NCBI RefSeq assembly: GCF_000744605.1
Contig: NZ_JQMG01000001.1
Location: forward strand, 1,488,001-1,552,000
Length of the DNA: 64,000 bases
Source of the DNA: Methylotenera sp. L2L1
GTDB taxonomy: Bacteria; Pseudomonadota; Gammaproteobacteria; Burkholderiales; Methylophilaceae
Direction of reading: 5' to 3'
In this document: in pieces, positions 1-36,894 of the stretch
How the letters are laid out: every line of letters starts with the position of its first letter
Position numbering within the stretch: the stretch's first letter is position 1
The notes under the pieces: model-generated
Told to the model about the DNA's origin: nothing
The model's database searches: none
Seen by the model: the letters and a program-made list of their open reading frames with translations, nothing else
Made by a program: the position numbers and the translations under genes

Positions 1-377
1 ACATGCGTACACGCACTGCCGCCATTAAAACTACCATTATGGATAGCCATTTAGTGGTGGGCGTGGGCAATATTTACGCGAGTGAGTCTTTATTCCGTGC
101 GGGAATCCACCCAGCAACACCAGCCAACAAGCTCAGTTTGAAACAGTGTGAAAAGTTAGTCACTGAAATTAAAGCAACATTAAACGATGCGCTTAAAGCC
201 GGCGGTAGTAGCCTGCGTGACTTTTTTGGTACAGATGGTAACCCTGGTTATTTCCAGCAGCAGTATTTTGTTTATGGCAGAACTGATGAGCCATGCAGGG
301 TATGCGGCAAGCCTATTTTAAATATTAGGCAAGGGCAACGCTCAACATTTTATTGTGGGGTATGTCAGAAGCCCTGA
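1..377 (+). CDS. mutM: Formamidopyrimidine-DNA glycosylase, C-terminal part (5' end outside window)
   Basis: Fpg/MutM removes 8-oxoguanine and formamidopyrimidines from damaged DNA. The visible 124 residues carry the family's C-terminal half: the helix-two-turn-helix stretch around [12 protein letters not shown], then [13 protein letters not shown], and a four-cysteine zinc finger (CRVC near residue 98 and CGVC near 118) that contacts DNA. The frame is open to the left edge. The first ATG at position 3 is therefore an internal methionine, and the catalytic N-terminal proline lies outside the window. The match to the E. coli protein as I remember it is close throughout, so identity is very likely. 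It stops at 377 and no terminator is obvious. Confidence 0.95.
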
Positions 378-19158: not shown

Positions 19159-20064
19159 TCACTTGATGTGATGAATAGCTTTTGCAGATGAATTAATAAG
19201 TCGAGAAATCAGCATAAGGTCAGGTTTTGCAATTAAATCTTCAGCAGATCCTTTTGCGCCAGTTGGTGCAACTTTAAATTTACCTTTTCCTGTTTCAACT
19301 TCAAGTTTGTATTCACTTTGGCAGGCTCTGCAGTAAGCTAAGTCTCCATTTTTAGCATTACTTTGTACGACGATTGTGGGACCACACATTAAACACTCAT
19401 GAAGCGGTATGCCTTCATCAGAATGACCAACAATATGACTTAGCTCTTCACTGTTTTCTAACTGTAAAAGAATTTCACCAAACTCAGGGTCAAATTGAGT
19501 ACCAAGATTTTCTTTAATGATTGAGAGTGCTTTTATTATTGGCATCCCTTGCCTGTATGGTCTTGTGCTAGTCATTGCATCAAATGCATCACATACGCCT
19601 ATTATTCTTGCGACAACGGGAATCTTCTCGCGCCTTAAACCTGAAGGGTAACCACGACCATCTGGTGTTTCATGATGCATAGAAATTGCGTCGACAGCAA
19701 GTGATGATAAAGGATGACCAGCTAGCATCCTCTTACCAATTTCTGGGTGAGTCTTAATGACTGCATACTCTTCATCAGTGAGTTTGTCCTTCTTGCTAAG
19801 AATAGCATCAGGAATGCCCACTTTACCTAAATCATGGAGAAAGCCACCAATAGCAATCTTTGCAGTTTCAATCTCAGAAATTCCTGCCTTATTAGCAATG
19901 AGTTGGGCAAAGCGAGAAACTCTCCAAAGGTGGCCGCCAGTGTAGGGGTCTCTGGCTTCAACCACCCATGCCATTACCATTAAACTTGCAAGAATGTTTT
20001 CTTGATTATCTGCTTGCGTTGCGTTGAAATTAAAGTAAGCACGTAGTGGTTTTAATATTTGCAT
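19159..20064 (-). CDS. HD-GYP domain phosphodiesterase with C-terminal zinc ribbon
   Basis: HD-GYP proteins hydrolyse c-di-GMP. From the preferred ATG at 20064 (GGA eight bases upstream; a TTG at 20082 is the longer alternative) the protein has 301 residues. The HD-GYP domain spans about 25-200, with the metal-binding FLHDLGK, HHETPDGRGYPSG and DAFDAMTSTRPYR. The C-terminus has two Cys-x2-Cys pairs (CLMC and CRAC, about 225-255), suggesting a zinc ribbon. No membrane segment is seen. It sits between the mod genes and an SDR gene, with no evident operon partner. Confidence 0.9.
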   Translation of the reverse strand: MQILKPLRAYFNFNATQADNQENILASLMVMAWVVEARDPYTGGHLWRVSRFAQLIANKAGISEIETAKIAIGGFLHDLGKVGIPDAILSKKDKLTDEEYAVIKTHPEIGKRMLAGHPLSSLAVDAISMHHETPDGRGYPSGLRREKIPVVARIIGVCDAFDAMTSTRPYRQGMPIIKALSIIKENLGTQFDPEFGEILLQLENSEELSHIVGHSDEGIPLHECLMCGPTIVVQSNAKNGDLAYCRACQSEYKLEVETGKGKFKVAPTGAKGSAEDLIAKPDLMLISRLINSSAKAIHHIK

Positions 20065-20204
20065 ATAGCATTCCAGTATCAATTTTATTGTTAAGTTCTG
20101 ATACTTAGTCTGCGCAATGTTCTAATCCTTACAAAATTACAATCAAGATAAATGTCGCCATATTAAGTGTTAAGTACTCCTGTTAATTAAGTGCAGCAGG
20201 ATAT

Positions 20205-22130: not shown

Positions 22131-22589
22131 ATGATTATTTTGAATATCAATGGTAAAGAAGCGCAGCTGGATGTGTCTGATGATATGCCGATATTATGGG
22201 CATTAAGAGATGTCATGCATCTTACCGGTACCAAGTTTGGTTGTGGCATGGCGCAATGTGGGGCCTGTACGGTTCATCTGGATGGACAGGCGATTCGCTC
22301 GTGTATTACCCCCATTGCTGCTGCTGTCGGTAAAAAAATTACCACGATTGAAGATGTTCAAAATGATAAAGTGGGCCAAGCGGTACAGGCCGCATGGAGT
22401 GAGGTGGATGTGGTGCAGTGTGGATACTGCCAATCTGGCCAAATCATGGCCGCGACAGCGTTGCTGACTACCAACCAAAAACCTACTGATGCAGATATCG
22501 ATGCAGCCATGAGCGGAAATATCTGCCGTTGCGGTACTTATCCGCGTATCCGTGCAGCGATTCATGCTGCGGCAACTAAATTAGCTTAA
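22131..22589 (+). CDS. iorA: Molybdenum hydroxylase small subunit with two 2Fe-2S clusters (IorA type)
   Basis: This 152-residue protein passes electrons from the molybdenum subunit. The plant-type 2Fe-2S site uses Cys38, Cys43, Cys46 and Cys58. The second cluster uses Cys97, Cys100, Cys132 and Cys134 (QCGYC and [10 protein letters not shown]). This is the standard order for small subunits of the xanthine dehydrogenase family. The next gene encodes the large subunit 9 bp on, with no FAD subunit, which is the IorAB arrangement; electrons therefore probably go to cytochromes rather than NAD. The substrate may be an aldehyde or N-heterocycle. Confidence 0.93.
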
Positions 22590-22598
22590 GGAGATATC

Positions 22599-24776
22599 AT
22601 GACAGCCCCTTTAAATATCTCAAGACGTACTTTCATCAAAGCCTCGGCACTTGTTGTGGGCGGCCTTGTGATTGCGTTCTCTATTCCTCAAGCTAAACGC
22701 TTTTTGCTACCAGGCGCTGCGAAAGAAACTGGCAGTGCGGGTGAGGCAAAGCTACCAGCACCTAATGCTTTTTTACGTATCGGTACCGATAATACAATCA
22801 CTGTGATGCTTGCACATAGCGAGATGGGGCAAAGCATATGGACCACATTGCCGATGTTGATTGCCGAAGAGTTGGATGCCGATTGGAGCAAGATTAAAGT
22901 GGAGCATGCATCTGCATCGCCTGCGTATCTTCATACGGCTTACGGGATTCAAATCACTGGTGGTTCTTCTACTACTTGGTCAGAGTTTGACCGATATCGT
23001 CAGGCTGGCGCTTTAACGCGTCAGCTATTAATTGGCGCGGCTGCTGAGCAGTTAGGTGTTCCTGCGGCTAACCTTAAAACAGAAAATGGTTTTGTGATTA
23101 GCGATGACACGAAAATTAGCTATGGCGATTTAGCTGAAGCAGCGGCTAAGTTAGAAACGCCCAAAGCCGTCACGCTTAAAGACCCTAAAGATTGGAAAGT
23201 GATTGGCAAGGCGACTAAACGCCTTGATGGCCCAGAGAAAATAAACGGCACTGCGGTATTTGGCCAAGATATTCATTTTGATGGGCTAATGACGGCGATG
23301 GTTGCTCGCTCACCAGTGTTCGGCGGCTCAGTAAAGTCTTTTGACGCTAGCGCTGCTAAGCAAGTGAAAGGTGTGCAGCAAGTGGTGCAAGTGCCTACGG
23401 GTGTGGCGGTAGTGGCTGATAATTATTGGGCAGCAAAACAAGGACGTGAAGCACTCAAGGTGGAGTGGGACTTAGGCCCAAATGCAAGCCTTGATTCAAA
23501 AGCAATGCTTGAGGATTTTAGAAGCAAAGCGGCTAATCCAGGTCTAGTTGCAGCGCAACTGGGGGATAGCAAAACCACGCTATCTAAAGCTGAGAAATTA
23601 ATCGAAGCCGAATACGCATTGCCGTATTTAGCACACTCACCGATGGAGCCGCTCAACTGTTCAGTCCGTATTGAGAAAGATGCTTGTGAAATTTGGACAG
23701 GCACGCAAATGCAAACAACAGACCAGCAAGCTGCGGCAAAAATATTAGGCCTTAAGCCTGAGCAGGTCAAAATCCATACGCTTTTCTTAGGCGGTGGTTT
23801 TGGTCGACGAGCAAATCCAGCCGCTGATTTTGTGTCAGAAGCGGTACAAGTGGCTAAGGCTGCAGGTGTGCCGGTGAAAACAGTTTGGAGCCGTGAGGAT
23901 GATGTGCAGGGTGGTTATTATCGCCCGATGTATTTGCACAAAGCTAAAATCGGCTTGGATGCCGATGGTTTCCCTACCGCTTGGGAGCAAGTGACGGTAG
24001 GTCAGTCGATTATGTTAGGGACACCGTTTGAAGCTTTTATGATTAAAGATGGGGTTGATGCTACCTCAGTAGAGGGCATTGCAGATTCACCCTATTTGAA
24101 GAAAACTCCTAACTATCATGTGAGTTTGCATACCGTGAAAACTGGTATTCCTGTGCTTTGGTGGCGTTCAGTTGGGCATAGCCATTCTGCATTTGTGATG
24201 GAAAGTTTGGTGGATGAACTTGCACATAGTGCGAAAAAAGACCCATTAGATTATCGTCGTGAGTTGTTAAAAGGTCACCCACGTCATTTGGCTGCGCTTA
24301 ATTTAGCGGCTGAGAAAGCCGAGTGGGGTAAGCCATTGCCTAAAGGTGTTTTTCGTGGGATTGCTGTGCATGAGTCTTTTGGCAGTTTTGTTGCGCAAGT
24401 CGCAGAAGTGTCTGTTGATCAAGGTGCGGTGAAAGTGCATCGTATGGTATGTGCCATTGATTGCGGGCTGGCAGTAAACCCTTATTCTCTAAAAGCACAA
24501 ATGGAGTCTTCGATTTCTTTTGGCTTAGGAGCTGCCATGCAAAGTGAAATTACCTTTAAAGAAGGTAAGGTCCAGCAATCTAACTTCCACGATTACCTCG
24601 TGATGCGCATGAGTGATATGCCCAAGGTTGAAGTACACATCGTGCAAAGCACTGAAAAAATGGGCGGTGTAGGTGAGCCGGGCTTGCCGCCTGTTGCACC
24701 TGCGGTGACTAATGCAATTTTTGCGGCTACCGGCAAACGTATCCGCCAATTGCCGATTGGCAATCAGTTGGCTTAA
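22599..24776 (+). CDS. iorB: Molybdopterin-binding large subunit (IorB-type aldehyde or N-heterocycle oxidase)
   Basis: The 725-residue protein is the catalytic molybdenum subunit. It starts with a twin-arginine signal (RRTFIKAS, residues 9-16, then a hydrophobic stretch), so the folded holoenzyme should be exported. Molybdopterin-family stretches such as [19 protein letters not shown] (about 399-417) and [19 protein letters not shown] (about 687-705) are visible. The latter contains the glutamate that acts as base in the family. Members oxidise aldehydes or hydroxylate N-heterocycles; which one cannot be read here. GGAG precedes the ATG. xdhC follows directly. Confidence 0.92.
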
Positions 24777-24780
24777 TCCC

Positions 24781-25758
24781 TTGAAATCTGCTGACTTAGA
24801 AGTATTAGACAGAGCGCTTGATTGGCTGAATGATGGTTATCAGGCGCATTTGTTTACCGTAGTGAAGACGTGGGGCTCTGCGCCGCGTCTACCCGGTGCG
24901 GTGCTGGTGGTGCGTGAAGATGGGCATCTTATCGGCTCAGTTTCCGGTGGCTGTATTGAAGATGATTTAGCAGATAAGGCACGTAATCGAACCTTGCCAA
25001 CACAACCTACGGTCATGGAATACGGTGTTAGCCGTGAAGATGCACAGCGCTTTAGAATCCCATGTGGTGGCCAATTGCAGATATTTGTGGAGCCATTGAA
25101 TGAGGCCGCACAGTTAGAGTCGATTATTCAGAACTTACGTGACCGTAAACTGACCAAACGCTCTGTGAATATTCGCACAGGTGAAATCAAGCTCACAGAA
25201 GTGTTGCCTGAAGGCGCACCTAGAATTGAGGGTGATTGGTTTCATACTTACTTTGGACCGCAATGGCGTTTATTGATTATTGGCGCTAATCAACTTGGCG
25301 CTACGCTAGCGAGTATGGCACAAGCATTGGATTTTGATGTACTGGTGTGTGAGCCACGCCAAGAAATTCGAGATGAGTGGCATGTAGAGGGCGCCACTTG
25401 GGTATATGGCATGCCTGATGATGTGGTGCTGGATATTGAGCCAGATGCGCATACCGCGATTGTGGCGGTGACGCATGACCCTAAGCTGGATGACATGGCT
25501 TTGCTTGAAGCATTAAAGTCCGATGCATTTTATGTAGGTGCACTTGGCTCGCACAAAAATCAGGAAAAGCGTCGTGAACGTTTACGGATGTTTGATCTGA
25601 ATGAGGCTGAAATTGCGACGATGCGCGGCCCAGTGGGGTTACGCATCGGTAGCCGTACACCTGCAGAAATTGCTGTTGCTATTCTTGCCGAGTTGATTCA
25701 AGTGCGAGCGCAACAGACGACGATTGGTTTGATAAACCAAGTAAGTTGTGCGGCTTAA
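24781..25758 (+). CDS. xdhC: XdhC-family molybdenum cofactor insertion and maturation protein
   Basis: XdhC-type chaperones hold the sulfurated molybdenum cofactor for xanthine dehydrogenase-type enzymes. The 325-residue protein has an N-terminal XdhC/CoxI domain with GSVSGGCIEDDLADKA, and a C-terminal Rossmann domain with LIIGANQLGATLASMAQ and GALGSHKNQEKRRERL. I chose a TTG start four bases after the iorB stop because it yields the usual family beginning M-KSADLEVLDRALDW. No other start lies between there and the middle of the first domain. It converges on mocA with a four-base TTAA overlap of the stops. Confidence 0.92.
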   Translation: MKSADLEVLDRALDWLNDGYQAHLFTVVKTWGSAPRLPGAVLVVREDGHLIGSVSGGCIEDDLADKARNRTLPTQPTVMEYGVSREDAQRFRIPCGGQLQIFVEPLNEAAQLESIIQNLRDRKLTKRSVNIRTGEIKLTEVLPEGAPRIEGDWFHTYFGPQWRLLIIGANQLGATLASMAQALDFDVLVCEPRQEIRDEWHVEGATWVYGMPDDVVLDIEPDAHTAIVAVTHDPKLDDMALLEALKSDAFYVGALGSHKNQEKRRERLRMFDLNEAEIATMRGPVGLRIGSRTPAEIAVAILAELIQVRAQQTTIGLINQVSCAA

Positions 25759-26336
25759 CGTTTTATATCAGCTTGCGTATCAATATCTGCCAAAATTCCC
25801 GCATCCTCACATGGCAGCATGCAAACTTCATCTGGATATCGTTTAATAATAGAGCGAGCACCTTCATCACCGTGTAGCTTTTCTAGATCGCTACGATGTT
25901 TAGCAGCAAAGCCAACAGGATGTCCGCGTTGGTCCTTATAAGTGGGGATGACGATGGATTGGTTAGTACTATTTGTTAGTTGCTTAGCAACAGTACTAAT
26001 CGTGGCAGATTGAATATATGGCATGTCTGCCAAGGCAATCACAAAGCCTTCTTTTGCCGCCTCAAAATTAAATGAAAAGCGGATGGCAGTAGATAGGCTA
26101 TCCGCCATTTCCTGCTTATCCTCTTCACATGCCACCACATTAAAACCGGTCGTGAGTAATAACTCAGCAAGCTGAGTATTTTCTGCCCGCACCACCGCAA
26201 TACTGGTGGGCATTGCCTCAATGAGATTTTGAGCCGAAGCTAGCGCTATTAGCCGACCATCTGGCAGGGCTTGTAATAGCTTGTCACTGTTGCCGAATCG
26301 TCGTGAATAACCAGCCGCCAGTAAAATGCCTATCAT
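25755..26336 (-). CDS. mocA: MocA-like molybdopterin cytidylyltransferase
   Basis: MocA turns molybdopterin into its CMP form, the cofactor of this class of hydroxylase. The 193-residue protein has the nucleotidyltransferase start ILLAAGYSRRFGNSDKLLQ, ALADMPYI near residue 95 as the metal-binding loop, and RGHPVGF near 135. These are features shared by MocA and MobA. Location beside xdhC and iorAB favours MocA. It follows the sigma-54 activator gene by 63 bp on the same strand and may be co-transcribed with it. Confidence 0.9.
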   Translation of the reverse strand: MIGILLAAGYSRRFGNSDKLLQALPDGRLIALASAQNLIEAMPTSIAVVRAENTQLAELLLTTGFNVVACEEDKQEMADSLSTAIRFSFNFEAAKEGFVIALADMPYIQSATISTVAKQLTNSTNQSIVIPTYKDQRGHPVGFAAKHRSDLEKLHGDEGARSIIKRYPDEVCMLPCEDAGILADIDTQADIKR

Positions 26337-26399: not shown

Positions 26400-28340
26400 T
26401 TAACTGATGCCCATCGCTTTAAGTTTACGATACAGCGTATTGCGGCTAATGCCGAGCTGGCGCGCAACTGCGGAAACATTACCGGCCTCTGTTTGCATAG
26501 CGTGCCTAATCGCTTGGCTGGTTAAATCGTCTAAATCCAATGAGGTGGATGATGACTCAGCTGTCAGACATGGCTTAGCTTGCGGCATTTCGTCAATAAA
26601 ATCTTGAGTGAGGTGTAGCGTGCTAATTGGCGTTCCATCTGCCAGCGCCAATGCGGTTCTGAGTACATTGTGCAACTGGCGGATATTGCCCGGCCAAGAG
26701 TGTGCTTTGAATACGTCCATGACGTCGGGCGTAATTTCTATGTTGCCAGCTTGTTCAATATGCAAAATGACATCAATCAGCGCCTGCAAATCAGAGCGTT
26801 CTCGCAAGGGCGGCAGGGCTACGCTTAAGCCATTTAGGCGGTAATAAAGGTCACTACGGAACTCGCCGCTATCTACTTTTTCTTTTAGTTTTAAATTGGT
26901 AGCGCTGATTAGCGAGAAATTGACTGGAATCGATTTTGAGCTGCCTAATGGTGTAACCGTGCGTTCTTGCAGCACTCTCAGTAACCTTGCTTGCAAGGAG
27001 AGCGGCATATCGCCAATTTCATCCAAGAATAGCGTACCGCCATTCGCTTGCTCAATCTTGCCAGGGCTGCCTTTGCGCCTTGCACCGGTAAATGCACCTT
27101 CTTCATAGCCAAATAACTCTGCCTCAATTAAGCCCTCTGGCAATGCAGCACAATTCACGGCAATCCATGGGCCTTTATGCTGTGCACTTGCCTCATGAAT
27201 CGCGCATGCGAATAACTCTTTACCAACACCCGTTTCGCCTTGAATCAAAATAGGGATGTCGCGTGACAGTACTTGTTTTATTTGTTGTATAGCCCGTGAT
27301 ATTTTAGCGTCACCACTGTCTAGCAAGTCTAAATTGGCAGCACTGGTTCTTTTTACGATGGCAGGTGGTGTGGTGCTAATCTGTTGTTTTTTATGTAACA
27401 GTTCTACTTGCACATAAATACGTGCGCCATTATTTAACCTTAATGGAACGATTAATTTATCTGCACTACCGGTTTGTCTTAATAAACTGTTAAATGGGAT
27501 ATCAAATAACTGGTCAAAGTTAATTTGCGGATAAGCCCGTGAGCTATTCGCAGGGGTAGCGCCTGTATTCAGACTCAGCTGGAACTGGCCGCTACGGTTG
27601 ATGGCAACCAATTGACCACCTGCGGTGAAAATGGCAACACCTTCCCATAAGGTGCCGATAAACTCTGGACGAGCATGAAAGTGCAATACCACATCGCCTT
27701 GATGGCTCGCTAAAAACAGCCGATTCTCAATCATCTGCGCGGACATCTTAATCAACGCCAACGTATGTTGCTGCGATGTGTTGGAATCGTTAGAAACATC
27801 CAATGTAGCAATCAGTTGATTCTCCGCACCAAAAATAGGGACAGCCGAGCAGCTTAATGAGTGATGGTATGCCATAAAGTGCTCAGCACCCTGTACCGTG
27901 AGTGCTGATTGCTCAATTAGCACAGTGCCAATCGCATTGGTACCTCTATGGTTCTCATGCCAAGATGCACCGGCAGATAAAGCAATGCGTTGCTCTTCGT
28001 TCAGAAAGTGATGGCCGCCTAGGCTATGCAGAATCACGCCTTCATCGTCCGTTAATATCACCACGTTACGTGTATGTGCGATTTGCTCGTTAAGTGTCTC
28101 CATCTCAGGTTGTGCAAGCTTGAGCAGTTGCTGATTCTGCTCACGTTTTAGCGCAAGCTCTTGCGCGGTAACAACCTCTAAGCTTTGCGGTGAGTTTGTA
28201 TCAATACCATTCGCCAGACAACGCCGCCATGAGCGCTCAATCGCTTCAGCAATCGCCCCTTGTTCTACATTGCCATTGCTCAAAAACTCTTTTCTGGCCT
28301 GCAGTATGGTTGGGGTTTTATCGGTTGTGGCATTGCTCAT
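26400..28340 (-). CDS. acoR: AcoR-type sigma-54 dependent activator (GAF, AAA+, Fis-type HTH)
   Basis: This 646-residue enhancer-binding protein drives RNA polymerase with sigma-54. It has an AcoR-like N-terminal sensor with a GAF domain (about 80-210), a PAS-like part (220-290), and a AAA+ domain with Walker A GETGVGKE (368-375) and the sigma-54 contact loop GAFTGA (415-420). A Fis-type helix-turn-helix closes it (VARQLGISRNTLYRKLKAMG at the end). AcoR relatives sense small alcohols, ketones or aldehydes. It is divergent from the xoxF-like gene; two inverted repeats and a -24/-12 promoter lie between them, so it is the likely activator of that gene. The symbol marks the family only. Confidence 0.93.
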   Translation of the reverse strand: MSNATTDKTPTILQARKEFLSNGNVEQGAIAEAIERSWRRCLANGIDTNSPQSLEVVTAQELALKREQNQQLLKLAQPEMETLNEQIAHTRNVVILTDDEGVILHSLGGHHFLNEEQRIALSAGASWHENHRGTNAIGTVLIEQSALTVQGAEHFMAYHHSLSCSAVPIFGAENQLIATLDVSNDSNTSQQHTLALIKMSAQMIENRLFLASHQGDVVLHFHARPEFIGTLWEGVAIFTAGGQLVAINRSGQFQLSLNTGATPANSSRAYPQINFDQLFDIPFNSLLRQTGSADKLIVPLRLNNGARIYVQVELLHKKQQISTTPPAIVKRTSAANLDLLDSGDAKISRAIQQIKQVLSRDIPILIQGETGVGKELFACAIHEASAQHKGPWIAVNCAALPEGLIEAELFGYEEGAFTGARRKGSPGKIEQANGGTLFLDEIGDMPLSLQARLLRVLQERTVTPLGSSKSIPVNFSLISATNLKLKEKVDSGEFRSDLYYRLNGLSVALPPLRERSDLQALIDVILHIEQAGNIEITPDVMDVFKAHSWPGNIRQLHNVLRTALALADGTPISTLHLTQDFIDEMPQAKPCLTAESSSTSLDLDDLTSQAIRHAMQTEAGNVSAVARQLGISRNTLYRKLKAMGIS

Positions 28341-28365
28341 ATCGTTGGCTACTTACCTTAAGTAA

Positions 28366-28395
28366 TTGAACACCTGTCACGTGACAACTGTTCAA
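28366..28395. promoter_or_regulatory. Candidate activator site 1 (30-bp near-perfect palindrome)
   Basis: TTGAACA-CC-TGTCAC is mirrored by GTGACA-AC-TGTTCAA, with only the two inner pairs unmatched in each 15-base arm. It lies about 157-186 bp upstream of the predicted xoxF-like transcription start and 26 bp before the activator's own start codon. This is a usual place for an upstream activating sequence. Confidence 0.75.
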
Positions 28396-28414
28396 TTTTG
28401 ACACAGTGTTAAAA
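28396..28414. promoter_or_regulatory. Candidate activator site 2 (19-bp palindrome)
   Basis: TTTTGACAC-A-GTGTTAAAA is an inverted repeat with one mismatch, directly adjoining site 1. The shared TGACAC/GTGTCA-like half-sites suggest that the same protein binds both. Confidence 0.65.
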
Positions 28415-28525
28415 GTTAAATGCTTTCAGTATGGAAAGGGTGTTCATTTCCAAGGAAATTTTAGTTTGTTGATTTTAAATAATTTTTTTATATAAAATTA
28501 TTTAAATTGCGGCTTTTTATTGTGT

Positions 28526-28541
28526 TGGCATGCCCATTGCA
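28526..28541 (+). promoter_or_regulatory. Sigma-54 (-24/-12) promoter of the xoxF-like gene
   Basis: TGGCATG, four bases, TTGCA fits the sigma-54 consensus TGGCACG-N4-TTGCW with a single change. Transcription would start near 28552, leaving a leader of about 75 bases. The divergent GAFTGA-type activator supports it. Confidence 0.92.
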
Positions 28542-28626
28542 ATATTAGCACTGTTACCAATGTCGTTTCAATGCATGAAATTAGTAATACATAACTTAAA
28601 TAATTTTTATAATTTGGGGATGCAAA

Positions 28627-30513
28627 ATGAATCATCAATTTAAACGTAAATTTAGCGTTGGCTTAGCGTTAAGTGCAAGCCTGTTCGGCATGCTGAGCAC
28701 ACCAGCTTTTGCTGAAGATGAATTATCAACACTTATGAAAGATGATAATCAGTGGGCACATCCACGCAAAGATTTTAGCAATACTGGTTATAGCCGTCTT
28801 AGCCAAATCAATAAAGGCAATGTGAAAAACATGAAACTTGCCTGGTCTTTTGCAACAGGGGTTAATCGTGGTCATGAAGGCGCGCCATTGGTGATTAATG
28901 GTGTGATGTATATCCATACCGCGTTTCCTAATAACATCTACGCGCTAGACTTAAATAATAGTCAGAAAATTCTTTGGTCTTATTTTCCTAAACAAGATCC
29001 ATCAACACAAGCTTTGCTATGCTGCGATAACGTCAATCGTGGTTTAGGTTATGGCGATGGCAAGATTTTCTTGCAACAGAACGACGGGTTATTAGTGGCA
29101 TTGGATGCAAAAACTGGTAAAAAACTTTGGGACACGCAAGTTACCAATGCGAAAGAGGGTGCATCAAATACCAACGCCCCCCATGTAATTAAGGACAAAG
29201 TGATTACTGGCTGTTCTGGTGGCGAGTATGGTGTGCGTTGTTATATCTCTGCCTATAACATTAAAGACGGTGCATTGGTATGGCGTGCATACAGCACAGG
29301 TTCAGACCAAGATGTATTGATTGGTGATGATTTTAATAAAGATAATCCGCACTACAGCGCGTTATCGCTTTACCAAGATGTAAACGGCGGCAATAAAATT
29401 GGCGGTTCATTTAAAGCTTTACCTAAAGATCAATTGAAGTTCCCAGAGAAAGATCTTGGTATTAAAACTTGGCTCAAACCACAAGCCAAAAAAGATGGCT
29501 GGCAGAATGGCGGAGGCCCAACTTGGGGTTGGTACTCATACGATACTAAGTTGAACTTAATGTACTACGGTACCGGTAACCCAAGCACATGGAACCCAGA
29601 TGTGCGCCCAGGCGATAACAAATGGTCGATGACGATTTTTGCACGTGATGTTGATACCGGCGAGGCTAAATGGGGCTATCAAATGACGCCGCATGACGAG
29701 TGGGATTACGACGGTATGAATGAAATCATATTGTGGGATTCTAAAGGCAAAAAACTTGCTAGCCACTTTGACCGTAACGGTTTCGGTTACACGTTTGACC
29801 GCACCAATGGCTCATTGTTAGTTGCCAACAAAATGCATCCGTTTGTTAACTGGGCATCTAGTGTTGATCTTAAAACTGGTACGCCAGTAAAAGATCCTAA
29901 GTTTTCAACCCACCAAGATTACAACGCACTAGGGATTTGTCCTTCAGCGCTTGGCGTAAAAGATCAGCAACCTGCTGCGTTCTCACCAAAAACTGGCATG
30001 TTCTACGTACCACTTAACCATGTGTGCATGACTTATGAGCCAGTTGAGTCTAAATACGTGGCTGGTCAACCATGGGTAGGTTCAACCTTAACCATGTTCC
30101 CTGGTCCAGATGGTGTGATGGGCGGCTTTATGGCTTGGGATGGTTTAAAAGGTAAATCAGCTTGGTACAAAAAAGAGCAGTTCTCAGCTTGGGGTGGTGC
30201 ACTTGTTACCTCTACCAACCTAGTGTTCTACGGTACACTAGATCGTTGGTTTAAAGCGGTTGATGCTAACTCAGGTAAAGAGTTGTGGAAGTTCCAAGTA
30301 GGTTCTGGCGTAGTGGGTAATGCCATTACTTACGGCCATAAAGGTAAGCAGTATGTAGGTGTGCTGTCTGGTATTGGTGGCTGGGCAGGGGTTGCGATGA
30401 ACCTAGGTTTAACTAACGCTACCGATGGCTTAGGCGCTGCTGGTGGTTATAAAGATCTAGTTAAATACAATGCGGCACCTGGTGGCGGCGCAATGAACGT
30501 ATTTAGTCTTTAA
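28627..30513 (+). CDS. xoxF: Lanthanide-type PQQ-dependent alcohol (methanol) dehydrogenase, XoxF-like
   Basis: This periplasmic quinoprotein should oxidise methanol or another alcohol and pass electrons to a cytochrome c. The 628-residue precursor has a signal peptide (cut after AFA, residue 29), vicinal Cys132-Cys133, and metal/PQQ-site residues Glu200, Asn318 and the catalytic Asp360. Asp362, two residues on (DEWDYDG), is the extra ligand that marks lanthanide-dependent enzymes; calcium MxaF has alanine there. Repeated tryptophan-rich beta-propeller blades are visible. GGGGATG precedes the start. A small cytochrome c follows by 26 bp, but xoxJ is missing. The exact XoxF clade cannot be set by eye. 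Confidence 0.9.
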   Translation: MNHQFKRKFSVGLALSASLFGMLSTPAFAEDELSTLMKDDNQWAHPRKDFSNTGYSRLSQINKGNVKNMKLAWSFATGVNRGHEGAPLVINGVMYIHTAFPNNIYALDLNNSQKILWSYFPKQDPSTQALLCCDNVNRGLGYGDGKIFLQQNDGLLVALDAKTGKKLWDTQVTNAKEGASNTNAPHVIKDKVITGCSGGEYGVRCYISAYNIKDGALVWRAYSTGSDQDVLIGDDFNKDNPHYSALSLYQDVNGGNKIGGSFKALPKDQLKFPEKDLGIKTWLKPQAKKDGWQNGGGPTWGWYSYDTKLNLMYYGTGNPSTWNPDVRPGDNKWSMTIFARDVDTGEAKWGYQMTPHDEWDYDGMNEIILWDSKGKKLASHFDRNGFGYTFDRTNGSLLVANKMHPFVNWASSVDLKTGTPVKDPKFSTHQDYNALGICPSALGVKDQQPAAFSPKTGMFYVPLNHVCMTYEPVESKYVAGQPWVGSTLTMFPGPDGVMGGFMAWDGLKGKSAWYKKEQFSAWGGALVTSTNLVFYGTLDRWFKAVDANSGKELWKFQVGSGVVGNAITYGHKGKQYVGVLSGIGGWAGVAMNLGLTNATDGLGAAGGYKDLVKYNAAPGGGAMNVFSL

Positions 30514-31076: not shown

Positions 31077-32912
31077 CTATTCAACATTAGCGACTGGTTG
31101 CTCCGCCCCTACGACACGGTTTCGACCAGATTGTTTTGCCAAATATAAGGCCGCATCCGCGCGAGGTAGCACACTATCAACTGTTTCTCCATACAATCGC
31201 TCTGCAACCCCTGCACTAAAGGTAATGAGTATGCGCTCATTATTGTGCAAGAAGAAGTTTTTTGTTAAGTCGCGCTGCAAGCCTGAAACCACAGTGACGG
31301 CGTCTTTTTGATTTGAGCCTGGCAGTAAAATAACAAACTCCTCACCGCCATAGCGCGCTAGCACATCCGTGCTACGTAAAATGTTCTTAACGACCTTGGA
31401 TAAATGGGCGAGCGCTTTATCGCCAGTTGAATGTCCCATGGTGTCGTTAATTTTCTTAAAGTGGTCAACGTCTAGCATTGCTAGCGATAGTGGCGTACCA
31501 TGCCTGTCAGACCGCTCAAATTCACGAACAAGTGCCTCATCCATGCCGCGCCTATTTAATGCGCCGGTTAAAAAGTCCTCATGTGCAGCTTCACTAATAT
31601 AATCAAGTTTCAGCGTTAGTTCGTTGATTTTCTTTTCGGCTTCTTCTGCTTTTTTCTGTGACGCTAAGAGCGTAACGTGATTGGCTTTTGCCTCATTGTT
31701 CATTTCACCAATATCACCCACTAAGCTTTCTAAGATAGTGTTGAGTTCAGAGATATCCTCAATCTCGTTGATTTGAGTATGGTATTGCTGAATCTTGTTT
31801 TGGTAGCTACCTGTCGAGGTTGTAATGTCAGCCAGCCGGCTCACAAATGTGCTCACCATGCTTCTCAGTGTTTCTTTTGCTTCAATCAGGCCAGGTTTAA
31901 TCTGAGCCTGCTTGAAAATGAGATCTTTTAGGCTACTTTCTGCGTTATAGACAGTGTCAATTTTGAGCGGTTTTGAAATAATTTCTTTCACGATTACAAT
32001 TTGAGCATGTAACCATTGGTCTTCAATGGTTAAATCAGCCATGCTGGCAACTAGTAGTCGCAATATTTCAACCAAAGCTTCTTGCATCCTACGCTGAGCA
32101 TCTGTTTGCATTTCTGCTCGCAGCAGGGTGGACCGTAAAGCACCGTTTAGTTGGTTAATTTGCTCAAGCGTTTGTGCGGCTTCAGCTTCTTTAATTAACT
32201 CCTCAACACGGTTAGCGGCACTCGGTGAGTCTGTGAATTTAGGTAGGACAAGAATCCTGATCGTCCTAATCAGTATGTCGCGCCAAGCGACAGCGGTTTC
32301 TGCGTGATTGACATCACTTTTATCCGTATGATTATGTATAGGCAGTGGCGCGTCATCTTTGTTAGATGGTTGCCCATTATGGTTTGGTTTGGAAATGTCA
32401 TTGGGAGGTATTTCAATGCTCACAGCTTTGCCTTCGCCCCATGAGGTTACAAGCGTCTGAATCTTCTCCGCTAGCTGAGAAGGGTCGTTTCCAAAGGTTG
32501 AGATGATGCGATTTAAGCCGTCTTTTTTGGTTGAGGCCGTTAACCCTGTATGATTAAGTTCTAGCTGCTTGAGTAAGTAGCGTAATAGTGTGCCCCACTG
32601 AATGTCATCCTCGTTTTCACCATCGTTAGAAATCAGCGCACGAAGTTGCTTATCCAAATTAACCGCATCATGTTTGTCGATCAAGCTGGAAATTCTTTTT
32701 GCAACCGTTGCGTATTTAGCGTTATCTTTACTTTTCTCTAACAGTACCTTGTTCAAGGTATTGTCTAAAATCGCTTTGCTGTTTGATGAGGCCACGCCAG
32801 CAATTTCATCGTAAACTTGTCTGTAGTTCTCAGGTGTGGGTGGTCTTTGGCTTTTTGATAGCTGAATTAGCGTCTGGCGAGCAATTTCAAGTGAGGTTAG
32901 TTTCTGTTCCAT
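31077..32912 (-). CDS. Diguanylate cyclase with long unclassified N-terminal region
   Basis: The 611-residue protein carries a C-terminal GGDEF domain (about 435-605). Its active site is GGEEF and an RxxD inhibitory site (RSTD) sits five residues before. The first 430 residues are helical and polar without membrane segments, with a coiled-coil stretch at about 395-430 just before the cyclase (NEAKANHVTLLASQKKAEEA). I do not recognise a sensor fold; similar long N-termini occur in proteobacterial cytoplasmic GGDEF proteins. It stands alone on the minus strand. Confidence 0.9.
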   Translation of the reverse strand: MEQKLTSLEIARQTLIQLSKSQRPPTPENYRQVYDEIAGVASSNSKAILDNTLNKVLLEKSKDNAKYATVAKRISSLIDKHDAVNLDKQLRALISNDGENEDDIQWGTLLRYLLKQLELNHTGLTASTKKDGLNRIISTFGNDPSQLAEKIQTLVTSWGEGKAVSIEIPPNDISKPNHNGQPSNKDDAPLPIHNHTDKSDVNHAETAVAWRDILIRTIRILVLPKFTDSPSAANRVEELIKEAEAAQTLEQINQLNGALRSTLLRAEMQTDAQRRMQEALVEILRLLVASMADLTIEDQWLHAQIVIVKEIISKPLKIDTVYNAESSLKDLIFKQAQIKPGLIEAKETLRSMVSTFVSRLADITTSTGSYQNKIQQYHTQINEIEDISELNTILESLVGDIGEMNNEAKANHVTLLASQKKAEEAEKKINELTLKLDYISEAAHEDFLTGALNRRGMDEALVREFERSDRHGTPLSLAMLDVDHFKKINDTMGHSTGDKALAHLSKVVKNILRSTDVLARYGGEEFVILLPGSNQKDAVTVVSGLQRDLTKNFFLHNNERILITFSAGVAERLYGETVDSVLPRADAALYLAKQSGRNRVVGAEQPVANVE

Positions 32913-35184: not shown

Positions 35185-36894
35185 TTAAACGAACTCGCTA
35201 TCAAGTTGAATTTGATTGCGACCAGCAGATTTTGCGACATACATGGCGTCATCTGCGCGTTTTAATATTTCGTCCTCATTTGACTCATGGTTAATAAATA
35301 ACACAACACCGATACTTGCTGAACATAAGTGTTCGATTTCAGTTTTAGTATCACCAGTATTTAATGATAGTAAATATGGCATTAATAATGCCTGACGTAT
35401 TTTCTCTGCTATACGGTTTGCTTGTTGAATGGACTTTTCTTTATCTGTCGTTAATGAGTTAAGTAAAATGACAAACTCATCACCACCAAAACGAGACACT
35501 GTATCAATTTGGCGGACACAGCTTTTGATACGTTCAGCTACTTCTAGCAGTAATGCATCGCCAAACGCATGCCCGTAAGTGTCATTAATTGGTTTGAAGT
35601 TATCAAGGTCTAAAAACATGAGCGCACAGTAGCGACCATTACGTTTGCTTGATGCCATGGTTTGACTTAAACGATCTTTAAGTAAGCGTCGGTTAGGGAG
35701 TTTTGTCAGCGCATCATAAAATGCTAGCTGACGTACTTCGTCTTCCAGTTTTTTACGATCTGTAATATCTAAATTATGCCCCTGAAGATATAAGCGTGTG
35801 CCATTCTCATCTTCAATAGGTGTGACGCGACAGTAGAAGTCTCGATAAATACCATCATGCCGTTTTAATCTAAAGTAATGGTCATAACCAGTTTTCTTTT
35901 CGAAATCAACTTGCCATATTTTTTGAGCTTCTGCTAAGTCTTCTGGATGGACAACAGAAGTCCATTTCTCTATGGTTAACGCATCATCTAGGCGCTGACC
36001 AGTAAAATCAAACCATTGTTTATTGGTGTAAGTGAAGGAGGTGCCGTCAAATGCCCACATATGGATATTGGTGTTATTCAGCAGTATCGATAGTCTTTGC
36101 TCGCTTTCGGCGAGTGCCTTGCTTCTGTTTGCAAGTTCAGACGTGCGTTGTTTAATTTTGTCTTCTAGCGTTTCTTGATGTAACAAGATTTCAGCGCTAG
36201 CGCGTTGGAGCTTATCAATGACGATTCTAATGTGTTTGATAAATGGGTTGAAAATCAGCATTGCTTCTAGTGATAACAGTAATAGAGTGAGAATCCATAA
36301 GGCCGTCTCTGCTTTTTCCAGTTGCTTGATAGATGCTTCACCCTCTAATTGATATTGATGCACCGCTTGGTCAAGTGATGAAACTAAAGTCGTCGGTGCT
36401 GTGTTGGTAATGTAGCGTAGTGCTGCATTGTCTGGACTGAGTTTGTTGCTATCTGTGGCGAGCAATGCGCGTACGGTATTAATGTAAGTTCTTACTTGTT
36501 TGTTAAGAGAAGAGTCACCTTCAAAATACATTGCTCTAACCGCTTGTGACATTGTCGATGGGAGCCCCATTTCTTTATTGCCATATAGTAATCCATGATG
36601 CGAGATTGCCATTAGCTCAATAGATTCTTCCAATTTTTTGCGAATAGACGCACGTTCATTTGCGTGTGCGGTGACCAGTAAGTTGGCAAACAGTGCAGTA
36701 CGTTGGCTTAGCATACGTTGCCGTCCGCTGATGTTGACTACGGCGGCAGTACTTTCCTGCTTGGAAATGACAAGTTTGAGACTGTACCAAGCGGCGGTTG
36801 AGAGCGCAGCAACGAGAGATAGTGCTAGTACGTAGCGCCAAGTGAGAGCTTGCGCGATACCTAGGTCATCTTTGATGTGTAGTTTTGTGAACAA
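35185..36894 (-). CDS. PilJ-type sensor, PAS, GGDEF diguanylate cyclase
   Basis: This 569-residue membrane sensor should make c-di-GMP. An N-terminal membrane helix (about 20-43) is followed by a periplasmic PilJ/type IV nitrate-sensor-like domain (SGRQRMLSQRTALFANLL at 55-72). A second helix lies at about 205-225, then a coiled coil, a PAS/PAC domain (about 270-390) and GGDEF (about 395-565). The active site is GGDEF and an RxxD site (RQID) sits five residues before it. The PilJ-type sensor commonly binds nitrate or a similar anion in other proteins; the ligand here is unknown. Confidence 0.9.
   Translation of the reverse strand: MFTKLHIKDDLGIAQALTWRYVLALSLVAALSTAAWYSLKLVISKQESTAAVVNISGRQRMLSQRTALFANLLVTAHANERASIRKKLEESIELMAISHHGLLYGNKEMGLPSTMSQAVRAMYFEGDSSLNKQVRTYINTVRALLATDSNKLSPDNAALRYITNTAPTTLVSSLDQAVHQYQLEGEASIKQLEKAETALWILTLLLLSLEAMLIFNPFIKHIRIVIDKLQRASAEILLHQETLEDKIKQRTSELANRSKALAESEQRLSILLNNTNIHMWAFDGTSFTYTNKQWFDFTGQRLDDALTIEKWTSVVHPEDLAEAQKIWQVDFEKKTGYDHYFRLKRHDGIYRDFYCRVTPIEDENGTRLYLQGHNLDITDRKKLEDEVRQLAFYDALTKLPNRRLLKDRLSQTMASSKRNGRYCALMFLDLDNFKPINDTYGHAFGDALLLEVAERIKSCVRQIDTVSRFGGDEFVILLNSLTTDKEKSIQQANRIAEKIRQALLMPYLLSLNTGDTKTEIEHLCSASIGVVLFINHESNEDEILKRADDAMYVAKSAGRNQIQLDSEFV

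Follow-up and report, generated by a model that had tools for sequence, protein, structure and literature searches.

The 64-kb stretch of DNA from Methylotenera sp. L2L1 analyzed here (the window) contains a xoxF gene and an activator gene in a divergent arrangement. Between the ATG of the activator (28340, minus strand) and that of xoxF (28627, plus strand) lies a 286-bp gap. From left to right, it contains a palindrome (28364–28397), a second palindrome (28396–28414), an AT-rich stretch and the sequence TGGCATGCCCATTGCA (28526–28541). A gene for a small c-type cytochrome starts 26 bp after xoxF. The features of the locus are collected in Table 1.

Table 1. Features of the activator–xoxF locus (nucleotide positions in the window, or residues of the activator where indicated)
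Feature	Position	Strand	Evidence
Activator, 646 aa	26400–28340	-	Pfam, motif positions, AlphaFold, Foldseek
Activator GAF domain	residues 72–208		Pfam
Activator PAS-like region	residues about 217–314		named by eye from AlphaFold model
Activator AAA+ sigma-54 interaction domain	residues 344–507		Pfam; GAFTGA at 415
Activator HTH_8 (Fis-type HTH)	residues 609–642		Pfam
Palindrome 1, arms of 17 nt	28364–28397		repeat search and alignments
Conserved predicted enhancer, family consensus TGTARCACCTGTKCANTTTTGAYACAAC	28380–28407		best 28-mer in 46 loci
Palindrome 2 (first-pass annotation), TTTTGACACAGTGTTAAAA	28396–28414		readable in sequence; left arm TGACACAG conserved
IHF-like block TAGTTTGTTGATTTTAA, between enhancer and promoter	28462–28478		alignment and shuffle counts
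-24/-12 sigma-54 promoter (predicted), TGGCATGCCCATTGCA	28526–28541	+	pattern match and conservation
xoxF, Mmol_1770 / XoxF4-2 type, 628 aa	28627–30513	+	TIGR03075, 6oc5, tree
Small c-type cytochrome, 107 aa	30540–30863	+	Pfam Cytochrom_C

The xoxF product matches the NCBIfam family TIGR03075 (methanol/ethanol PQQ family), and its best match in the PDB is the XoxF structure 6oc5. The ligand positions listed for known XoxF (PMC11845868) are intact at residues E200, N318, D360 and D362, so that the Glu, Asn and Asp ligands of a lanthanide methanol dehydrogenase are accompanied by the lanthanide-specific second Asp two residues on. In a XoxF tree of 68 rows, the window gene groups with the copy at 1.936 Mb of genome G051 (L122), and the second copy of the window genome (L002) groups with the G051 copy at 2.229 Mb (L155). 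G051 is taken here to be M. mobilis JLW8, as G037 is taken to be M. mobilis 13 and G013 M. versatilis 301. The positions and strands of the two G051 copies fit Mmol_1770 and Mmol_2048, respectively, with 2348 genes in the genome table (PMC4109929), and the gene behind the Mmol_1770-type copy in G051 encodes a relative of the small cytochrome of the window, as published for mmol_1769. Because the window gene groups with the Mmol_1770 copy and apart from the Mmol_2048 type, it is assigned to the XoxF4-2 type. The M. mobilis XoxF4-2 enzyme is reported to be methanol-specific and lanthanide-dependent, and its gene to be less expressed (PMC6028718). The small cytochrome is likely an electron acceptor that is encoded on the same transcript as xoxF.

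The activator displays the composition of a bacterial enhancer-binding protein, with an AAA+ sigma-54 interaction domain, a GAFTGA motif, a Walker motif and a C-terminal HTH. The first-pass annotation had described a GAF/AAA+/Fis activator with GAFTGA, and the Pfam matches to the GAF, sigma-54 interaction and HTH domains, together with the GAFTGA motif at residue 415, agree with that description. The AlphaFold model of the activator (mean pLDDT 74.7, pTM 0.49) is of middling confidence and was used for the domain order alone. The best 50 Foldseek matches listed are sigma-54 activators that match over the AAA+ part, and a DhaR fragment (4lrx) matches activator residues 29–262. The best NCBIfam match is also DhaR (NF008485, residues 22–645), at 319.2 bits against an equivalog cut-off of 551, and no AcoR model is found among the best 25 of 29 NCBIfam matches. 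The label "AcoR-type", which the first-pass annotation had used, is thus a loose description and not a tested membership. The activator resembles DhaR/AcoR-type activators in this best match and in having sister activators in the family that face NAD-aldehyde dehydrogenase genes, but differs from them in falling below the DhaR cut-off and in its predicted target, xoxF.

The -24/-12 element (TGGCATG-CCCA-TTGCA) ends 85 nt before the xoxF ATG and contains the GG at -24, the GC at -12 and the exact spacing of a sigma-54 promoter (TGGCAYR-N4-TTGCW). It is the single zero-mismatch match to TGGCAYRN4TTGCW in the window, which bears out the earlier placement of such an element upstream of the XoxF-like start. 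When two mismatches are allowed, the pattern is not enriched in the window (52 found versus 57 expected). In the 2.64-Mb genome, the exact pattern occurs 13 times and the reversed pattern once. When the gap of 286 bp is shuffled by mononucleotides, TGGCAY-N5-TTGC arises at a rate of 0.000175. From the usual spacing, xoxF transcription is predicted to start near position 28552. A block after the -12 motif, around this predicted start (28542–28580, ATATTAGCACTGTTACCAATGTCGTTTCAA...), is partly kept in the genus. Positions 28300–28700 gave no Rfam match at E values up to 1, and the leader was therefore not considered to contain a riboswitch or another known RNA.

The alignment of 18 intergenic regions revealed three conserved islands amid drifting linkers of variable length: the enhancer, a TARTnnnTTGATTTTAA block (in the 16 genus rows) and the promoter island TGGCAY...TTGCAATA. 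It is very unlikely that transcription depends mainly on a sigma-70 promoter, with the sigma-54 site serving as a minor start or persisting as a relic. Three weak sigma-70-like matches are present in the region, but they were rejected as promoter candidates since their number is not clearly above that in shuffles (3 versus a mean of 1.6, sd 1.4), and it is the sigma-54 element that is kept while the linkers drift.

The conserved predicted enhancer ends 118 bp before the -24 element. The best match to the 28-base consensus is located 99–141 bp, mostly 100–121 bp, before TGGC in 46 loci, and the element thereby lies, as sequence, within the distance of about 80–200 bp from the start that is typical of sites for bacterial enhancer-binding proteins. 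The shuffle p value of this match is at most 0.05 in 43 of the 46 loci and 0.12–0.19 in the other three, which belong to the M. versatilis subgroup and carry a one-base insertion; the consensus was drawn up after part of the sequences had been seen, and these values therefore measure strength and not discovery. The extra base is located between the GTGACA and TGTTCA motifs of the enhancer and is observed in the loci L020, L021, L023 and L024 of that subgroup.

The first-pass annotation had placed two abutting palindromes in this region. The first was confirmed by the repeat search, with arms (28364–28380 and 28381–28397) that are 88% complementary and joined without a spacer. The second can be read in the sequence, but it does not stand as a conserved palindrome: only its left arm, TGACACAG, is conserved in relatives, and it is absent as an arm pair from the repeat search listing that gave palindrome 1. 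The element conserved across genera is 28380–28407, which straddles the junction of the two palindromes. The outer left arm of palindrome 1 (TGAACAnCTGTCAC) is kept in the genus and is not found in this form outside it; judged from the alignments, the perfect palindrome is a genus-level elaboration. With the limits first given for palindrome 1 (from 28366), the palindrome begins 25 bp from the activator ATG, one less than the 26 bp originally claimed. This proximity would fit an operator that represses the activator alone, or an unrelated repressor site, with xoxF not being a target, and one locus (L190) retains the enhancer without xoxF or a -24/-12 element. Such an operator is nevertheless extremely improbable because the gap between the enhancer and the -24 element is held at 99–141 bp, mostly 100–121 bp, in the 46 loci and the site is conserved along with the promoter of xoxF.

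A further element, absent from the first-pass annotation, is found between the enhancer and the promoter. The block TAGTTTGTTGATTTTAA at 28462–28478 differs by one mismatch from YAANNNNTTGATW, which we take to be the IHF consensus. An exact IHF-like match is present in 15 of the 46 loci (0.6 expected from shuffles), a match within one mismatch is present in 30 (10.7 expected), and TTGATTTTAA occurs in 24 (0.1 expected). The latter sequence was observed at all 16 places of the focal genus (g1), at 8 of the 16 places of genus g58 and nowhere else among the 46 loci. Since TTGATTTTAA is confined to two genera, a role of IHF may not be general.

Within the genus, the predicted sigma-54 promoter was found with this xoxF type and not with the other xoxF-like copies examined. 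Matches to xoxF with at least 84% identity are present in 14 of the 52 genus genomes, all 14 of which contain the activator. The activator occurs in 16 genomes in total; in the two additional ones, the locus meets a contig end, with no xoxF visible before the end in L022 and only the first 83 codons visible, at 52% identity, in L016. Each of the 14 focal orthologs is preceded by the exact -24/-12 element, at a distance of 81–105 bp from the ATG. Conversely, the element (up to one mismatch) is absent from the upstream 400 bp of all 37 other xoxF-like copies examined, out of 62 non-focal places in the genus. The same holds for three additional genes for PQQ dehydrogenases in the window genome. 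A match to the sigma-54 DNA-binding domain was obtained in 51 of the 52 genus genomes, including the window genome.

Another enhancer-binding protein, such as NtrC, could in principle be the main driver of the sigma-54 promoter, with the neighboring activator being incidental and the control being of a nitrogen type. The genome encodes at least six further strong AAA+ activator matches, and the rare-earth switch has been described to respond to the nitrogen source in communities (PMC5723320). We consider this alternative to have a very small probability, as the enhancer and the -24/-12 element travel with the neighboring activator across seven genera and none of the further xoxF-like copies that were examined within the genus has the promoter. 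The enhancer core occurs in the genome as one zero-mismatch site, at the focal locus, and two sites with three mismatches. The activator is thus probably dedicated and local, and a wider regulon was rejected. A composite pattern of the enhancer and TTGAT was found in 8 of 187 genomes, every time at an activator place. The bare 12-mer TGTNACGTNACA was dropped as a probe because it was often no commoner than its reversed control.

On its other side, the activator gene is adjoined by a molybdenum aldehyde oxidoreductase set (22131–26336) consisting of genes for a 2Fe-2S subunit, a Mo subunit, XdhC and a MobA-like protein. Among 30 activator loci (L010–L039, ~1.5 kb past the activator), xdhC/mobA matches are present only in L010–L014, which represent the window genome and four close relatives, and the molybdenum genes were therefore not counted in the circuit. 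An HD-GYP protein and two GGDEF proteins are encoded nearby (19159–20082, 31077–32912 and 35185–36894; domains named by eye).

In a survey of 187 genomes of the family (activator matches at E up to 1e-150), the activator was found at 59 places in 53 genomes and in 11 of 24 genera, and the upstream side was inspected at all 59 places. The activator is divergent to xoxF at 45 places (7 genera) and to an NAD-aldehyde dehydrogenase gene at 10 places (4 genera); three places face neither gene, and one is cut by a contig end. TGGCAY-N5-TTGC is present in 45 of the 45 xoxF-linked activator loci, as well as in the contig-edge locus. The first-pass annotation had put forward that the divergent activator controls xoxF through sigma-54, with conservation of the element in relatives as a check; this count supports the proposal at the level of sequence. 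Several genomes of genus g10 (G060, G149 and G151) contain two or three activator places each. In G060 and G151, each of the two activator places has a sigma-54-type xoxF of its own. G149 (L190, L191 and L217) has two equal-scoring activator places, 143 kb apart, of which neither has a divergent xoxF or aldehyde dehydrogenase gene. In L190, the enhancer is retained and the gene opposite the activator is phosphoesterase-like (named by eye).

A phylogenetic tree of the activator was built from 60 rows, including 33 of the 45 xoxF-linked places (those that are near full-length) and 10 of the 80 loci from a wider contig scan, which showed no Methylotenera relatives. All 33 rows with xoxF linkage fall into a single group of 35 rows with a support of 100/99, together with the contig-edge row and L217, a copy located away from xoxF. 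The nearest rows outside this group are L214, which is aldehyde-dehydrogenase-linked, and then a five-row set (93/91) with four aldehyde-dehydrogenase-linked rows. The linkage label requires three changes on the tree, two of which concern the contig-edge row and L217. Most aldehyde-dehydrogenase-linked loci of the Methylophilaceae contain GTCTCA/TGAGAC repeats in place of the xoxF-type enhancer; L192, the partner of L214, lacks these repeats and contains an enhancer like the xoxF type. The nesting of xoxF-linked activators among aldehyde-dehydrogenase-linked ones suggests that an alcohol/aldehyde-responsive regulator was recruited. In the XoxF tree, the sigma-54-type xoxF copies fall into two groups of 25 and 5 rows, which may or may not have a common origin.

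The two classes of activators also differ in sequence. Seven GAF positions (89, 106, 150, 170, 179, 191 and 198) separate the xoxF-linked from the aldehyde-dehydrogenase-linked activators in a small contrast of 34 versus 5 rows. In the recognition helix, residue 634 is Asn in 34 of 34 xoxF-linked rows and Ala (four) or Thr (one) in the five aldehyde-dehydrogenase-linked rows compared. Asn at this position is also common among activator relatives outside the family, and the xoxF-linked state may thus be the older one for DNA binding. The split at the GAF positions, along with the fact that the target is a lanthanide enzyme, could be taken to indicate that the GAF domain senses the lanthanide itself and that the activator is a sigma-54 rare-earth switch. 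We regard this as highly improbable: the genes opposite the sister regulators encode NAD-aldehyde dehydrogenases, and the majority residues of the xoxF group at the seven positions (H, S, Q, F, T, Q and K) include no acidic residue.

Taken together, the divergent activator, the enhancer, the IHF-like block and the -24/-12 element very probably constitute a classical sigma-54 inducible module for xoxF4-2. The parts of the putative module, their order and their co-inheritance are read from sequence and conservation, and their order, spacing and motifs correspond to the textbook enhancer/IHF/-24/-12 arrangement. From this arrangement, we infer a mechanism in which the one-component activator binds to the enhancer at 28380–28407. 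Bending of the DNA at the IHF-like block (28462–28478) would allow the activator to reach RNA polymerase–sigma-54 at 28526–28541, and the AAA+ domain, through its GAFTGA motif, would open the promoter for co-transcription of xoxF4-2 and the small cytochrome gene. With the enhancer 39 bp away from its ATG, the activator gene may also be limited by its own product. The most likely signal for the GAF/PAS-like front is a small pathway alcohol or aldehyde (methanol/formaldehyde) and not a lanthanide, since NAD-aldehyde dehydrogenase genes lie opposite the nearest sister activators and BmoR-like alcohol sensors exist among sigma-54 activators. Judged from these neighbors and by analogy with BmoR, candidate inducers are methanol and formaldehyde, besides other small alcohols and aldehydes. 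A broader scenario, possible but somewhat less likely than not, is that an ancestor of several genera of the Methylophilaceae once captured a regulator of cytoplasmic NAD-aldehyde dehydrogenase, such that a cytoplasmic C1 signal (methanol/formaldehyde) drives the periplasmic XoxF4-2 via sigma-54 through a gate that is separate from the rare-earth switch and private to XoxF4-2.

The systems described for the control of lanthanide/calcium alcohol dehydrogenases are MxcQE, MxbDM, MxaYB and PedS2R2 (PMC11845868 and PMC6115532). Like the predicted module, they set the expression of these enzymes, but they are two-component systems, and the passages covered from the two sources describe no sigma-54 enhancer-binding protein for xoxF. 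The first-pass annotation had named two-component control of xoxF, and the regulation section of the 2024 review (PMC11845868) describes such systems in the passages covered. The statement that no sigma-54/AcoR circuit is known for xoxF holds in part. No report of sigma-54 control of xoxF was found in the literature covered, which was open-access and for the most part without subscription papers, and the portions seen of PMC5623727, PMC3404531 and PMC11237559 name xoxF and sigma-54 apart from each other. However, a GAF/sigma-54 regulator is already drawn in the xox cluster map of the review (PMC11845868, Figure 1), the legend of which does not give the carrier species. As this regulator is already in print, the new part, relative to the literature covered, is the promoter/enhancer circuit and its spread. 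The predicted circuit is a standard one with a new and important target, and it is well supported by conservation.

Two other systems share single aspects with the module. The PQQ alcohol dehydrogenase gene exaA of Azospirillum is likewise sigma-54-dependent, but it has a LuxR-type partner regulator instead of a GAF activator and is exaA instead of xoxF (cited in PMC6115532). BmoR of Thauera butanivorans is likewise a one-component alcohol-responsive activator of a sigma-54 promoter, but it targets an alkane monooxygenase promoter and responds to C3–C6 alcohols (PMC6366067).

The regulation of xoxF is considered to need more study and is expected to be species-specific (PMC11845868). In transcriptomes, xoxF copies behave differently, and the parts of the papers that report this name no mechanism (PMC3728764 and PMC5723320). 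The expression data for XoxF4-2 are mixed, since mmol_1770, a gene of the same type, was 4–6 fold up in situ versus laboratory cultures in JLW8, with high expression of the small cytochrome gene mmol_1769 beside it (PMC3728764), whereas XoxF4-2 expression decreased in methane-fed communities (as cited in PMC6028718). For the choice among several xoxF copies in the Methylophilaceae, the module would assign a specific activator, enhancer and promoter to one copy, and it is a possible reason for the difference in expression between XoxF4-2 and XoxF4-1. If true, it would represent a new control route for an enzyme that is usually discussed via two-component systems. The circuit predicts that xoxF4-2 is induced by substrate, and it could yield a C1-responsive sigma-54 biosensor. 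Mutants of xoxF exist in M. mobilis JLW8 (PMC6028718, Table 1).

A relative of the small cytochrome follows xoxF in 10 of the 14 genus orthologs and in 11 of the 11 g58 loci that reach far enough, and none was found in the five loci that make up the second xoxF group. Within the genus, the four orthologs that lack the cytochrome (L129–L132) belong to the same four genomes as the enhancer-insertion loci of the M. versatilis subgroup. Strain 301 of M. versatilis, which is one of them, is reported to express the xoxF of this type very weakly, barely so in all conditions, and to lack the cytochrome (PMC3728764). The -24/-12 element is intact upstream of this xoxF, indicating that the promoter element alone is not predictive of expression. 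The enhancer insertion and the cytochrome loss in the subgroup look like decay or retuning of the module, and their coincidence in four orthologs, together with the low expression in strain 301, is as the model would allow.

Two loci outside the focal arrangement were also noted. In a genome of the same order and another family (G083; L035, 1492–4925), a distant activator (40% identity) is followed by a XoxF-like gene (51% identity) on the same strand, unlike the divergent arrangement at the focal locus. At G000:C1:814661-814960, a TGTTACGTAACA palindrome is located ~270 bp before another exact -24/-12 element (TGGCACGGCACTTGCT), a possible second palindrome-driven sigma-54 promoter.
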